From positions 1-64,000 of the forward strand of contig JAIQEU010000013.1 of the NCBI GenBank assembly GCA_020073665.1: a DNA stretch of 64,000 nt, written 5' to 3'. Under the pieces are notes generated by a model. That model saw only the letters and a program-made list of their open reading frames with translations, ran no database searches and was not told where the DNA came from. This stretch comes from Terriglobia bacterium (lineage in GTDB: Bacteria > Acidobacteriota > Terriglobia > Terriglobales > Acidobacteriaceae). Shown piece after piece: positions 9,338 to 57,204 of the stretch. How positions within the stretch are numbered: position 1 is the first letter of the stretch; every line of letters starts with the position of its first letter. A program made the translations under genes and the position numbers.

Positions 9338-10723
9338 TTAGATGCGCACGCTGAGCCGGCGCATCGCCTCTCCCACAATGTGAATCGAACCCGTAATCAC
9401 TACCACGCCTTTCGCGCCCGCCAGTGTCTGGGCCCGCTCCAGGGCCGAGGCTGCGTCCGGCGCCTCTTCGATCTCGGTTGCGGTGCGCGCGGCCGCGTTT
9501 CGGATCTCCTCGGGTGTGGCCGAGCGGGGATTGTCGGCGCAGGTGGCGATCACCCGGTCGGCAAGGGGAAAAAGAATCTCGGCAATCTCGCCAATGGCCT
9601 TGTCGCGCATCGCACCGAAAACGAATGTCAGCGGCCGGTCTTCATAGGCGATCGACAGCGTGGACCGCAGCGCCCAGGCCCCGGCCGGGTTGTGGGCCAC
9701 GTCGAAGACAAGCTCGGGCGTGCGGCTGGTGGCGGGCACAACCTGGAACCGTCCCGGCCAGCGGGTCTGGCGAAGGCCGCGCTCAATCGCTTGTGGCGTA
9801 ATGGCGAAACCTTGCTTGCTAAGTTCTTCGGCCGCCGCGATGGCCAGGGCAATGTTTCGCAGCTGATGCCGTCCGACCAGCGGAGTTTCCACCAGAATCT
9901 CTTGCCCCATAACCTGCAAGGGATAGCGCGCAACCGGGCTGGTAGTCGAGGTTTCTTTCTCGGTACTCGGTACCAGGTACTCGGCACTCGCCGGCGAAAC
10001 CGGCGGCATGTAAGGCACCGCGCTCACCCCACGCGCTCCCAGATCGAGAATCGTGTTCCCGATCACGTCATTGGCTTGCGGTTGCTGGGGCAGGGTCACC
10101 ACCACTCCGCCGGGCCGGATGATTCCGGCTTTTTCGCGCGCGATTTCCGTGACTGTGTGGCCTAGAAATTTTTCGTGGTCGAGGGAGATGTCGGTAATCA
10201 CGCTGAGCCGCGGTTCGATGACATTGGTGGCATCCAGACGCCCACCCATGCCCACCTCCAGCACCGCGATCTCGACCTTAGCCTGGGCGAAATACTCAAA
10301 CGCGATCGCGGTCAGCATCTCAAAGAAGCTGGGGTGCCAGGGCAACTCGCCCTCGCTGACCAGGCGCTCAGCGGTCCGGTCGACCACGTCGTGCAGCCCG
10401 GCGAAATCATCATCGCTGATCTGCTGGCCATTGATCTGAATTCGCTCGTTGATCCGCACCAGGTGCGGCGAAGTGTAAAGCCCGGTCCGCAAGCCCGAGG
10501 CCTGGAGAATGGCGGCCAGAGTTGCCGCGGTCGAACCCTTGCCGTTGGTCCCGGCAATCAGCACCCCGGGAAACCGCTGCTGCGGATGATTCAACGCAGC
10601 CAGCAGCGCTCGCATGTGCGCCAAGTCGAACTTGTGCGACGGCGTCTGCGCCAGCTCGTGGCCCAGCGCGTACATGCGGGTGATGGCGGTTTCGTAAGAC
10701 ATGGGAAATCGGGCCTTGGACAT
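9338..10723 (-). CDS. folC: Dihydrofolate/folylpolyglutamate synthase
   Basis: FolC makes dihydrofolate and adds glutamates to folates. The 461 residues contain the Mur-ligase-like core: 'GTNGKGSTAATLAAI' (P-loop), 'SPHLVRINERIQING', 'LEVGMGGRLDATN', 'ITDISLDHEKFLG' and 'FDVAHNPAGA'. Residues about 245-257 are encoded by a 7-bp repeat array nearly identical to the one in tgt and interrupt the domain junction as an in-frame insertion. Translation may start at the second Met (position 10702). It lies between accD and plsC, and shares the folate theme with the CADD-like gene at 56331. Confidence 0.96.
   Translation of the reverse strand: MSKARFPMSYETAITRMYALGHELAQTPSHKFDLAHMRALLAALNHPQQRFPGVLIAGTNGKGSTAATLAAILQASGLRTGLYTSPHLVRINERIQINGQQISDDDFAGLHDVVDRTAERLVSEGELPWHPSFFEMLTAIAFEYFAQAKVEIAVLEVGMGGRLDATNVIEPRLSVITDISLDHEKFLGHTVTEIAREKAGIIRPGGVVVTLPQQPQANDVIGNTILDLGARGVSAVPYMPPVSPASAEYLVPSTEKETSTTSPVARYPLQVMGQEILVETPLVGRHQLRNIALAIAAAEELSKQGFAITPQAIERGLRQTRWPGRFQVVPATSRTPELVFDVAHNPAGAWALRSTLSIAYEDRPLTFVFGAMRDKAIGEIAEILFPLADRVIATCADNPRSATPEEIRNAAARTATEIEEAPDAASALERAQTLAGAKGVVVITGSIHIVGEAMRRLSVRI
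9955..9990. repeat. Heptad array (CGGTACT unit) inside folC
   Basis: Units CGGTACT, CGGTACC, AGGTACT and CGGCACT follow in tandem. The array keeps the folC frame open, but is read in a different phase from the near-identical array in tgt, so the two inserts encode different peptides. That argues that DNA-level spread, not protein homology, explains the similarity. Confidence 0.85.
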
Positions 10724-21463: not shown

Positions 21464-21883
21464 TTACGGCTGGTTCATCGAATTCGGAGATTGCCTCTGT
21501 TTCATCTGCCGAATCATGAAGAACCAAAGCGCTGCCAGAAGGATTAGAGGCGCGAGATTCAGCAACCATGAGGGCCAGCCTTGCTCAGCCGTCTCCTTAA
21601 ACCAAATCTCCACGTTCTTCTGACGAAGGGCTTGTAGCATTCCTTCTTGGCTGGTTGGAGCGGTTACGCTGAAAGAACTGTTGTCTCGGTACGACCCGAC
21701 AATGTGGTTCCTCGAAACCGTGACCTTCACGACGTTCCCGGCATCAACCTGAGACAGGAAAGCGGAATAGCTGATCTCGGGCGTCTTCGGTTGATCCGGA
21801 TTGGCCTTGACAACCTGCCACAAGAGAAATGCCGACAGGACGATCACCAGCCAAAAAACGACTGTCTTTACCGTCTGGTCCAA
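21464..21883 (-). CDS. Standalone FtsH N-terminal (two-helix plus periplasmic) domain
   Basis: A 139-residue protein equal to the first fifth of FtsH and nothing more: helix 1, a periplasmic domain of about 75 residues, helix 2 and a short polar tail; no ATPase or protease follows. Compared with the full FtsH at 50554, both membrane segments are identical over 24 and 25 residues, whereas the periplasmic domain has clearly diverged. In DNA the shared helices differ at many synonymous sites. I chose a TTG at 21883 because it aligns with the FtsH start and has AAGGGAG seven bases upstream; an ATG at 21949 is also open. It lies downstream of clpB on the same strand. Confidence 0.82.
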   Translation of the reverse strand: MDQTVKTVVFWLVIVLSAFLLWQVVKANPDQPKTPEISYSAFLSQVDAGNVVKVTVSRNHIVGSYRDNSSFSVTAPTSQEGMLQALRQKNVEIWFKETAEQGWPSWLLNLAPLILLAALWFFMIRQMKQRQSPNSMNQP

Positions 21884-22012
21884 AACAATGCTCCCTTGAC
21901 CGGGCAGAGTAGTCCCAGGCAAGCCGTAGGTCAAGCAGAGTGCAGCCAAAAAGAAAGGCCGCGCCTGGTCGGTTCGGCTGGGCAGCCGAGGGCGGCTACC
22001 CCTGCGTGTGTG

Positions 22013-27922: not shown

Positions 27923-28045
27923 CTTCAGAAGGAACTGTGTTGATTCTAGCACGTGAAAGCACCGGGCCCGCCTGACTCCCGGTCGTGATGTGGGTCACAG
28001 ACACAGGTGTGCCCGGCCCGGTGAAATCGAGTGGAGGTGTGCGCT

Positions 28046-28693
28046 ATGCAGGCAGAGATTTTCGCCGCCATGCGGCAAAGCATCCTCGACGGCACCGCCG
28101 ACCAAGCCGGAGACCTGGCCCGGAAGGCTCTGGAGCAGGGAATCGCTCCACTCGATGCCATCGACCAGGGCTTCGTTCCAGGCATGAACCAGGTGGGAGA
28201 GATGTACGCGCAGCACAAGATGTTCCTGCCCGACATGCTGGCCTCCGCCGAGGCCATGAAAGCCGCCATGATTGTGCTGGAACCGGAACTCAAGCGCCAA
28301 GGTGGAGAGCGCCCGACCGCCGGGACCGTGGTGCTGGGCACCGCCAAGGGTGACATCCATGAAATCGGCAAGACCCTGGTAGGCACCCTGCTGACCGCCC
28401 ACGGCTTCCAGGTGCATGACCTGGGAGTAGACGTCACTGGCGAGCGTTTCGCCGCTAAGGCGCGCGAAGTCGGCGCCGATATCGTCGGCGTCTCCGCCCT
28501 GCTGACCACTACCATGGGCGGACAAAGGTCGGTGATCGAGGTCTTGAGCCGGGAGGGGCTCCGGCCCAAAGTGAAAGTGATCGTGGGCGGCGCCCCGGTC
28601 ACGCGCCGCTGGGCGGAGGAGATCGGCGCCGATGGTTACGGCAAAGATGCGCTCAGCGCCGTGACCTTGGTGAAAAGCCTGGTCCAAAAGTAA
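28046..28693 (+). CDS. Corrinoid protein of a methyltransferase system (MttC/MtgC-like)
   Basis: The 215-residue protein carries a methyl group on a cobalt corrinoid between a substrate methyltransferase and an acceptor. The N-terminal helical cap (about 1-85) precedes the cobalamin domain with 'GTAKGDIHEIGKTLVG' (D-x-H-x-x-G, base-off His ligand), 'GVSALLTTTM' and 'VIVGGAPVT'. The ATG at 28046 has GGAGG upstream. It is nine bases before the MttB-family gene, so the two form a methyl-transfer pair. The corrinoid:folate methyltransferase and a RamA-like activator are not in the window. Confidence 0.94.
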   Translation: MQAEIFAAMRQSILDGTADQAGDLARKALEQGIAPLDAIDQGFVPGMNQVGEMYAQHKMFLPDMLASAEAMKAAMIVLEPELKRQGGERPTAGTVVLGTAKGDIHEIGKTLVGTLLTAHGFQVHDLGVDVTGERFAAKAREVGADIVGVSALLTTTMGGQRSVIEVLSREGLRPKVKVIVGGAPVTRRWAEEIGADGYGKDALSAVTLVKSLVQK

Positions 28694-28702
28694 GGGGAAC
28701 GC

Positions 28703-30166
28703 ATGCGACCCAAACTCGAACTACTCGACCGCAGCCTGGTAGATCGCATCCTGGGCGAAGCCTTTGAGTTGCTGAATTCTCCTGGCATCAAGGTGGGTAC
28801 ACCCGCCGTGCTGGAGATGCTGGCCGCGGCCGGTTCGCGGATCAACGATGGCGTCGCCCATATTCCGGAGAGCCTCGTCCGGCGCGCGCTCGAGTCAGTG
28901 CCGCGCGAGTTCTTCCTCTACGACCGCGGCGGAAAGCCTGCGGTTCACTACGGTGGCGACGACGTCCATTTCGACCCGGGCTCCTCTTGCCTGAACATTC
29001 TTGATCCGGAAACCCAGCAGCCGCGGCCCGCCCTGTCCGCCGACCTGGTTCGGATGGTGCAAGTCACTGAGATGCTGCCGCAGTACGCGGCGCAATCCAC
29101 GGCGATGGTTTGCAACGACGTGCCCGCCGGGATGGGAGACTGGTACCGCCTTTTACTGATCCTCTGGTACTCGGATAAGCCGATGGTAACGGGTGCATTC
29201 GGTGTCGGCACGCTCCGGACCATGCTGGAACTGCTGGCTGCCGACAGTGGCGGCTACGAGGCGCTCCGAGCCAAACCCCGGGCGGTGTTCGACGTTTGCC
29301 CCTCTCCACCGCTGAACTGGTCGGGATTCGCTTCCCAGAACATGGTGGAGCTGGCGCGGGCCGGGGTCCCCGCGGAAATCATCTCCATGCCGCTGGCGGG
29401 TGCGACCGCACCCGTCACTCTGGCGGGCTCCATCGTGCAGCATGCCGCGGAAAGTCTGGGCGGCATCGTTATCCATCAACTGGCAAAACCTGGCGCGCCT
29501 GTGGTTTGGGGAGGAGCGCCTGCCATATTCGACATGAGCTCGGGAAATACACCCATGGGGGCGATGGAAACCGCCATGCTCGATGCTGGATGCGCGCAAG
29601 TCGGCAAGTCCCTGGGACTGCCCACCCACGCCTACCTGGTGGCTAGCGACGCCCGCCGGATTGACGCGCAAGCCGGCCTGGAAAGCGCCAGCTCGGCCGT
29701 TCTGGGTGCACTGGTCGGGATCAACATGATCTCGGGCGCAGGCATGCTCGACTTCCTCGCCTGCCACAGCATTGAAAAGCTGGTCATTGATGCGGAAGCG
29801 ATCGCGGGGGCACAGCGCCTGCTGGCCGGCGTCGAGCCTCGCACCGAGAAGCTGGCGGTCGCAATGTTTGCGCAGACCGGCTTCAGCGGTGAGTTCCTGA
29901 AGCTGAAGGAAACCCGCGCCCTGTTTCGCAAGGAGCAGCACTTCCCCTCGGCCGTGATCGATCGCAGCGGAGATCCCAATGCGCCGGACCTGTTCACCCG
30001 GACTCGCCAGTTAGTGAGTGATTTACTGGCGCGCTACCAGCGTCCGCCCATCCCGCAAGAAATCGAAAAAGCCCTGCTCGCCATCGCACGGCGAGAAGCC
30101 ACGGCTGCGGGGCTCGACCACCTGCCGGGCCTGGTGCTGCAAGGTTCTGAAGTGCCGGTGTCCTGA
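28703..30166 (+). CDS. MttB-superfamily (non-pyrrolysine) amine methyltransferase
   Basis: A 487-residue TIM-barrel protein of the trimethylamine methyltransferase superfamily ('YDRGGKPAVHYGGDDVHFDPG', 'PLAGATAPVTLAGSIVQHAAE', 'SSAVLGALVGINMISGAGMLDF' regions). It has no in-frame amber codon, so it is a non-pyrrolysine member. Characterised relatives demethylate quaternary amines such as glycine betaine, proline betaine or carnitine; the substrate here cannot be read from sequence. AAGGGGA precedes the ATG, and it is translationally close to the corrinoid protein. It ends in TGA. Confidence 0.93.
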   Translation: MRPKLELLDRSLVDRILGEAFELLNSPGIKVGTPAVLEMLAAAGSRINDGVAHIPESLVRRALESVPREFFLYDRGGKPAVHYGGDDVHFDPGSSCLNILDPETQQPRPALSADLVRMVQVTEMLPQYAAQSTAMVCNDVPAGMGDWYRLLLILWYSDKPMVTGAFGVGTLRTMLELLAADSGGYEALRAKPRAVFDVCPSPPLNWSGFASQNMVELARAGVPAEIISMPLAGATAPVTLAGSIVQHAAESLGGIVIHQLAKPGAPVVWGGAPAIFDMSSGNTPMGAMETAMLDAGCAQVGKSLGLPTHAYLVASDARRIDAQAGLESASSAVLGALVGINMISGAGMLDFLACHSIEKLVIDAEAIAGAQRLLAGVEPRTEKLAVAMFAQTGFSGEFLKLKETRALFRKEQHFPSAVIDRSGDPNAPDLFTRTRQLVSDLLARYQRPPIPQEIEKALLAIARREATAAGLDHLPGLVLQGSEVPVS

Positions 30167-50553: not shown

Positions 50554-52455
<1,902 letters not shown>

Positions 52456-52716
52456 CAAAAACTCCTGTAGGCCCTGCTTGCTAACACCGAAGCTACTTAT
52501 CCACTCGTTATAGATGCTCTGCGGCGCACAATGGCGCTGTTTTCTTGCGGCGTGCAGGACGCGCTGGACGGATGGCTGGGCCCAGTTTGGCACAAAGTGC
52601 CGCGCCAGCCAGCGGATACCGAGACCGACAACACTAATCCCCGGGCCCCTGCGTCTCCCATTTTACCTGTTTCTGGAGCCTTCCCCCGGTCAAAATTGTG
52701 ATCGCCCAGGGGTAAC

Positions 52717-56245: not shown

Positions 56246-56280
56246 CAAACAAAAGAGCCACCAACATGCGTTAGTGGCTC
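56246..56280 (-). terminator. Rho-independent terminator of the CADD-like gene
   Basis: On the minus strand an 11-bp stem GAGCCACTAAC/GTTGGTGGCTC (one G-T pair), loop GCAT, followed by TTTTGTTTG. It lies 50 bp after the gene's stop codon; a CAATCTG/AAATCTA heptad array (56296-56328) lies between. Confidence 0.92.
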
Positions 56281-56330
56281 CCGTAACCCGGTCAATTCTG
56301 CAATCTGAAATCTACAATCTGCAATTCCCT

Positions 56331-57032
56331 CTACGCCGCTCGCGCCATCCGCTGCTGCTCGATGCCGTCGAGCGCCTGCCACAGCGTCTTGGCTGCAGCC
56401 TCACCCGACTCCAGCGCCTTCTCCGCCGCCAGCGGATTCGATTCCAGCCGCTTGCCCAGCTGCTGCCGCCACACGCGCGAGTGGTACACATCCGCGGTCA
56501 TGTGCAGGGTGAAGTATCCCCGGGTCTTTTCGTCGGCCCCGTACATCTGTTCGAGCCCGCGCGCCTTCTCCTGCGCCACCCGCGGCACCTGCGACTCGTA
56601 GGCATAGAACGCGGCCAGCGCCTCTTCGGGCGCGCCTTGCTGGGCGACGCGGTGAAAGAACTTCAACAGCTGCTGGATAGCGGGCAGCGGCTTGTGCCCT
56701 CCCAAATTGCGGCTCGCGCCCATGCCCTCGGCAAAATCCAGCCACAACTCCGAGTGCGCCGGCGCCGGCTCCCCATACAGGTCTTCGCCGCCCTTCTCGT
56801 CGCTCATGTTGGCCAGCACCGCACGCCGCAGGTCGCCTTCTTCCAGGCGAATCCCCAGTTGTGCCAGGTAAGTCGGAAACGCTTCTACGTGATGATAGTA
56901 GTGCTGCGCGTATTCCTGCAGGTCCTGGCGCGTCAGCTCACCCGCGGCCCAGGCTTTATAAAAGGGATGACAAAGCAGATCGTACTTGGCGATGCGCGAG
57001 TCCAGTTGCTGGAAGAATTCCTTGGTGGTCAT
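56331..57032 (-). CDS. CADD-family protein (self-sacrificing pABA synthase type)
   Basis: A 233-residue helical-bundle protein of the TENA/PqqC-like fold that matches the chlamydial CADD family ('HPFYKAWAAGELTRQDLQEYAQHYYHHVEAFPTYLAQLG' split across the first helices). CADD makes p-aminobenzoate for folate from its own Tyr side chain at a metal centre. Known functional residues have counterparts here: Tyr25 (Tyr27 in CADD), Glu79, Glu146, Lys156, and His177-x3-Asp181-x2-His184; the last five keep CADD's spacing. A short insert precedes His93. The window also contains folC. Strong terminator after it. Confidence 0.85.
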   Translation of the reverse strand: MTTKEFFQQLDSRIAKYDLLCHPFYKAWAAGELTRQDLQEYAQHYYHHVEAFPTYLAQLGIRLEEGDLRRAVLANMSDEKGGEDLYGEPAPAHSELWLDFAEGMGASRNLGGHKPLPAIQQLLKFFHRVAQQGAPEEALAAFYAYESQVPRVAQEKARGLEQMYGADEKTRGYFTLHMTADVYHSRVWRQQLGKRLESNPLAAEKALESGEAAAKTLWQALDGIEQQRMARAA

Positions 57033-57204
57033 ATGAACTCCTGTGAGGGAAATGAAGCACTACTATAAGGGGACACGCAACCCCTGACAAGTAACTTGGC
57101 CATTGCGTCCAGCGCCCCCGTTCGCCCCGCCTCCGGCCCCAAGTTGCTAGAATGGAACACAGTGCGTACCGGCCTTCCGCCGGACGTGTGGGGCGCCGCA
57201 ATCC

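Follow-up and report, generated by a model that had tools for sequence, protein, structure and literature searches.

A predicted self-sacrificing p-aminobenzoate synthase of the CADD/NePabS type in a free-living acidobacterium

Introduction

Whether a free-living soil acidobacterium can obtain p-aminobenzoate (pABA) from an enzyme that spends its own residues, in place of PabABC, is the question raised by a single open reading frame (ORF) of a Terriglobia bacterium. Of the two self-sacrificing pABA synthases characterised, one belongs to an intracellular pathogen and the other to an ammonia oxidiser. The ORF lies in the window, that is, the whole analysed stretch of 64,000 nucleotides, and a first-pass annotation made from the letters alone had read it as a CADD-type pABA synthase. 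This interpretation is supported by the present analysis and was right in substance. Enzymes of this type have been described before, in Chlamydia and Nitrosomonas, and the ORF adds another member; what deserves attention is the frequency of the route in the sampled family and the existence of genomes with neither CADD nor PabB, which pose a testable question. The PMC11965152 discussion names Wolbachia, Rickettsia, Chloroflexi, Sphingomonas, and Nitrosomonas. Among the open-licence papers listed, we found none joining CADD and pABA, or self-sacrificing enzymes, with Acidobacteria, although a statement that the link is unreported would be weakly founded.

The gene and its family

The ORF is real and is located on the minus strand, which the first-pass annotation had left unstated. 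Its features are as follows.

56331..57032, minus strand: predicted CADD-type pABA synthase gene, 233 amino acids with an ATG start (ORF calls, profiles, and structure model)
56958..56960, minus strand: codon of Tyr25, the predicted sacrificed residue (alignment; counted from the ORF start)
56565..56567, minus strand: codon of Lys156, the predicted amine donor (alignment; counted from the ORF start)
56757..56795, minus strand: codons 80-92, encoding the extended loop that separates metal ligands Glu79 and His93 (alignment)
57062..57090, minus strand: promoter-like site TTGTCA-17-TATAGT, one found against 0.2 expected in shuffles
57038..57042, minus strand: AGGAG, likely ribosome-binding site (read from the sequence)
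56253..56282, minus strand: terminator-like hairpin 49 bases 3' of the gene, one found against 1.1 expected in shuffles and thus weak alone

These signals suggest that the gene likely has a transcript of its own. It is the only CADD-type gene of the host genome and is under purifying selection, with dN of 0.12-0.21 and dS of 0.88-1.52 in comparison with four relatives.

The ORF matches the heme-oxygenase-like family PF14518 in Pfam (1e-30), and its best NCBIfam match, over the full length, is TIGR04305 (CADD family putative folate metabolism protein; E 2.1e-56). The score of 190.9 bits is just below the curated cut-off of 200, so that the protein is not filed under this model; full-length members in the host's family score from about 160 to 310 bits, and a match over the cut-off occurs in 62 of 300 genomes of that family. 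The best solved relatives are CADD/CT610 (1rcw, E 1.7e-35) and chain 9pj4, described as '4-aminobenzoate synthase' (E 3.8e-32). In a tree of 44 sequences, the protein falls inside a fully supported group of 29, all from the host's family; ten canonical-type CADDs from that family, and four from other families in the phylum, branch outside this group. The tree has an arbitrary root and a long reference branch, and separate origins are not claimed from it. Acidobacteria supply all of the best 80 of 514 named relatives; most of these are uncultured Acidobacteriaceae, Terriglobia, and Candidatus Sulfotelmatobacter, and the set also includes Candidatus Korobacter versatilis and Paracidobacterium acidisoli. 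No relatives on viral contigs were found by a search that reaches close relatives only. Collectively, it is well supported that the protein is part of a divergent clade, formed by acidobacterial sequences, within the CADD/NePabS self-sacrificing pABA synthases.

The structure model

An AlphaFold2 model built from 43 sequences (pLDDT 97.1, pTM 0.93) has the CADD fold. Its top Foldseek match is CADD 8va9, with a TM score of 0.84 by query length, and its top VIA-align match is CADD 1rcw (Z 30.1, 1.4 A over 212 residues, 37% identity); PqqC is the next family (Z 26.7). The heme-oxygenase-like fold is also shared with the other HDOs BesC, FlcD, and UndA. Superposition and alignment together predict that the ligands named below would converge on one metal site.

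Key residues and the loop before His93

NePabS, an Fe/Fe enzyme, spends Tyr25 and Lys159 and requires Tyr41, and CADD of C. trachomatis, an Mn/Fe enzyme, spends Tyr27 and Lys152, as stated in the available excerpts of PMC11965152. The ORF protein carries Tyr25, Tyr41, and Lys156 at the equivalent positions of an alignment with CADD and 9pj4, together with six dimetal ligands (Glu79, His93, Glu146, His177, Asp181, and His184; three histidines and three carboxylates). With CADD it thus has in common both sacrificed residues, the six ligands, and Tyr at both metal-selecting positions; with NePabS of Nitrosomonas europaea it shares HPFY, Tyr25, Tyr41, Tyr45, the donor Lys, and the six ligands, whereas Phe148 and Phe177 of the latter are replaced by Tyr. 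The comparison with NePabS was made through chain 9pj4, which agrees with the peptides found in the accessible portion of PMC11965152 except for Lys in place of Gln before His22.

The Glu146-(9)-Lys156 pair and the His177-x3-Asp181-x2-His184 set, both reported earlier from the sequence, are present as described and occupy equivalent positions in CADD (1rcw) and 9pj4. The HPFY motif ending in Tyr25 is likewise present, but its designation as chlamydial does not hold, since CADD has HTFY and it is 9pj4 that has HPFY. An insertion before His93 had been proposed as a distinguishing mark. The insertion is real, with 13 residues between Glu79 and His93 compared to six in 9pj4, yet it is common in the clade and therefore not distinctive: among the best 80 of 514 named loci, the gap is 13 in 46, and the remainder span 6 to 14 except for two odd rows with values of 1 and 2, so that the loop is variable inside the clade. 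Relative to CADD, the stretch separating the second metal ligand in sequence from the third is seven residues longer (13 against 6), and the extra loop that NePabS has after about residue 62 is absent, the longer loop before His93 being found instead.

All 42 relatives from the phylum keep Tyr25, Tyr41, Tyr45, Trp97, Tyr145, Lys156, and the six ligands. They comprise the fetched loci above 100 bits by phmmer, 28 in the clade of the ORF and 14 nearer to canonical CADD; because loci were fetched best match first, members below 200 bits are few among them (L015 and L016). In contrast, Tyr25 and Lys156 are each kept in none of 17 other HDO-type hits of the phylum, and all six ligands in three, where six of the 17 lack most ligands, making their register unsure, and four end before Lys156 and show a gap in that column. 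Among the best 80 of 514 named loci, Tyr25 and Tyr41 are each kept in 80 and Lys156 in 79, although these loci were found by two motifs covering the Tyr25 and Tyr145/Glu146 stretches, where conservation is partly built in; less biased evidence comes from Tyr41, Lys156, Trp97, and the outlying ligands. As judged from the sequences, the residue match to CADD and NePabS is confirmed to be far above chance, because of the E-values to 1rcw and 9pj4, the difference in Tyr25 and Lys156 between the 42 relatives and the 17 other hits, and the dN/dS values.

Two deviations were seen within the same 80 loci. Asp181 is changed to Gly in one of the best 80 of 514, and at L145 (8001-8672) the donor Lys156 is replaced by Arg with the other checked key residues intact, which could be a natural variant or an assembly error.

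Folate and pABA genes of the host genome

The host is free-living, and its genome of 5.42 Mb is 100% complete with a contamination value of 1.87. Profile searches of this genome with Chorismate_bind and Aminotran_4 yielded no recognisable PabB or PabC. The one Chorismate_bind match is TrpE (TIGR00564, 561.9 bits against a cut-off of 517.7), and each of the two Aminotran_4 enzymes is identified as IlvE, exceeding the TIGR01122 cut-off and falling well short of the PabC cut-offs. One TrpG/PabA-type amidotransferase is over its cut-off; its gene shares a contig with trpE, at a distance of about 2 kb, and folP is also present. The genome check for pabA, pabB, and pabC that had been recommended earlier has been run, and its outcome does not refute the CADD interpretation. 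The window does contain folC, as had been noted (9338-10723, minus strand; TIGR01499, 374 bits against a cut-off of 162.65), but it lies about 46 kb from the CADD-type gene and adds nothing to the argument. The CADD-type gene adjoins no folate genes, unlike CT610, which clusters with them according to the accessible text of PMC1971073.

CADD versus PabB across genomes

Across 199 genomes of the phylum, TIGR04305 has a match at E 0.001 or better in 27 and over the cut-off in 10; 13 genomes exceed 170 bits, nine of them from the host's family. In 28 chosen genomes, PabB is over its cut-off in none of the 13 with strong CADD, in nine of the 12 picked for the absence of strong CADD, and in none of the three with weaker HDO matches, with the identity of TrpE checked in eight of the 13 strong-CADD genomes and that of PabB in three of the nine. 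A Pfam scan of a single case (L034) showed PabB joined to a PabC-type domain in a fusion.

The host's family was then represented by 300 genomes, in which CADD was called at 120 bits or more to TIGR04305 and PabB over the TIGR00553 cut-off. CADD is found in 135, PabB in 73, both in 5, and neither in 97 (Fisher p 8.6e-16). For the 207 good genomes (completeness of 90% or more, with values rounded, and contamination of 5% or less), the counts are 96 with CADD only, 56 with PabB only, 4 with both, and 51 with neither (Fisher p 6e-16); both p values are inflated by shared ancestry, species not being independent. The 120-bit rule retains three contig-edge fragments (G246, G287, and G347) and omits lower matches in G478, G402, G319, G348, G466, and G386, some of which are contig-edge pieces of probable CADD, so the 'neither' count in the 300 genomes is somewhat too high. 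PabB is in turn somewhat undercounted, since among 28 'neither' genomes examined G235 and G261 have two chorismate-binding matches and G434 has three.

The same pattern is seen within genera. In genus g4, CADD occurs in eight species and PabB in eleven, with both in none; in g7 the numbers are one and thirteen, and in g8 seven and one, again with no doubles. The doubles are confined to G231 (g153), G300 and G323 (g176), and G349 and G440 (g145). CADD and PabB are thus largely mutually exclusive in the host's family, as replacement of one by the other predicts. The CADD matches of g8 belong to the canonical group, and those of g4 and g7 to the divergent group where loci were fetched.

The CADD type is the commonest recognisable pABA source in this sampled soil family, in genomes of ordinary size. 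Moreover, species of one genus that differ in the enzyme provide a natural series in which to ask why an entire protein should be spent on each pABA.

Proposed function and metal cofactor

Taken together, the residues, the fold, and the exclusion of PabB make it very probable that the gene product is a self-sacrificing pABA synthase of CADD/NePabS type, active for a single turnover, that replaces PabABC. The activity, order of steps, metal, and single turnover are proposed from what is known of the two characterised enzymes. In this scheme, the dimetal site formed by the six ligands would, once reduced, react with O2, and the oxidising hole would pass over aromatic residues, for which Tyr145, Tyr173, Tyr45, and Trp97 are candidates, to Tyr25. 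The CA-CB bond of Tyr25 would then be cleaved, leaving Gly25, and the ring fragment would become a carboxylate by oxidation, taking its oxygen from O2 and its amine from Lys156. The yield would be at most one pABA per polypeptide, which FolP could subsequently consume. If so, folate pathways in such bacteria only seem incomplete, as the data suggest.

The metal step can be addressed on the basis of two residues near the metal site. In the available excerpts of PMC11965152, NePabS has Phe at both near-metal positions and performs best when iron is the only metal, CADD has Tyr at both and uses Mn/Fe, and a double Phe-to-Tyr change shifted NePabS to Mn/Fe. With Tyr145 and Tyr173, the ORF protein resembles CADD rather than NePabS at these positions, and an Mn/Fe cofactor is therefore predicted. 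Alternatively, the same enzyme could carry out the same reaction with an Fe/Fe cofactor as in NePabS, which is a possible but less favoured assignment. Fe/Fe is usual in HDOs, F148Y alone gave a cambialistic enzyme and cambialism is cited for CADD variants (PMC11965152, in part), and the Mn/Fe choice is apparently not structurally encoded, as far as the accessible part of PMC13108848 indicates. However, the two Tyr residues match those of CADD at just the positions whose double change moved NePabS to Mn/Fe, and they are present in 28 of 28 other clade members and in 79 and 80, respectively, of the best 80 of 514 named loci.

Genomes with neither enzyme

The 'neither' genomes bear on whether the CADD-type enzyme is the main supplier of pABA. 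A single chorismate-binding match is found in 25 of the 28 examined, in one of them as a contig-edge piece only, and folP is over its cut-off in 16 of 18, compared to 23 of 23 CADD and 11 of 11 PabB genomes. The host's family thus has folate pathways with no recognised pABA source; examples are G202, G225, G073, G171, and G252. Because such genomes mostly have folP where tested, absence of PabB alone is weak evidence for CADD.

From these observations and the 51 of 207 good genomes in which neither enzyme is called, it could be argued that pABA comes mainly from import or from moonlighting TrpE/TrpG and IlvE, and that CADD makes a supplement. We regard this as unlikely, since a general supply of this kind would not require the exclusion between CADD and PabB. 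AbgT is a known p-aminobenzoyl-glutamate transporter family. It was found in none of 47 genomes spanning all three states, compared to 4 of 14 control genomes, which also speaks against the supplement explanation, and AbgT salvage was rejected as the pABA supply of the 'neither' genomes. A further reading, which we put forward quite tentatively, is that the family has three interchangeable pABA sources, namely PabB, the CADD type as the most frequent, and a third, perhaps a pABA-making enzyme of a new kind, in no more than a quarter of the good genomes; the organism of the window would represent the CADD state.

PqqC, BesC, FlcD, and UndA are HDO-family enzymes with other substrates. It is highly improbable that the ORF protein is merely a CADD-like oxidase of this kind in a cell that obtains pABA otherwise: the fold is common to many HDOs (Z 20-27), the TIGR04305 model is not passed, and the folP-retaining 'neither' genomes imply another pABA source in the family, but the protein scores far below the PqqC and BesC cut-offs (TIGR02111, 37.6 against 240 bits; NF042919, 56.8 against 500 bits), only self-sacrifice calls for Tyr25 and Lys156, which separate the 42 relatives from the 17 other HDO-type hits, and the exclusion with PabB would be left unexplained.

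Gene neighbourhood

Within the fetched stretches of the best 80 of 514 named loci, mnmG is found in 51 and an FlK-type thioesterase gene in 45. In G202 (L183), the mnmG, thioesterase, and PEP-mutase genes stand in the order of the window without CADD, and the genome has no TIGR04305 match, so that CADD is the single gene absent from an order that is otherwise conserved. A functional tie between CADD and the thioesterase was rejected, because G202 keeps the order without CADD and inherited gene order explains the proximity better. Relatives of this type, with mnmG beside the thioesterase and no CADD between them, are the place to seek a possible third source; by-eye inspection of the ORFs of 13 loci gave no common candidate for a gene taking the place of an absent CADD upstream of mnmG.

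Two other observations in the window were made by eye. A short ORF at 21464-21949 on the minus strand resembles the N-terminal part of the FtsH encoded at 50554-52593, with which it shares a stretch of 24 residues, and it is without the AAA and protease parts. At 28031-30166 on the plus strand, an ORF that we take to be corrinoid-protein-like is followed by one presumably related to MttB-type methyltransferases.
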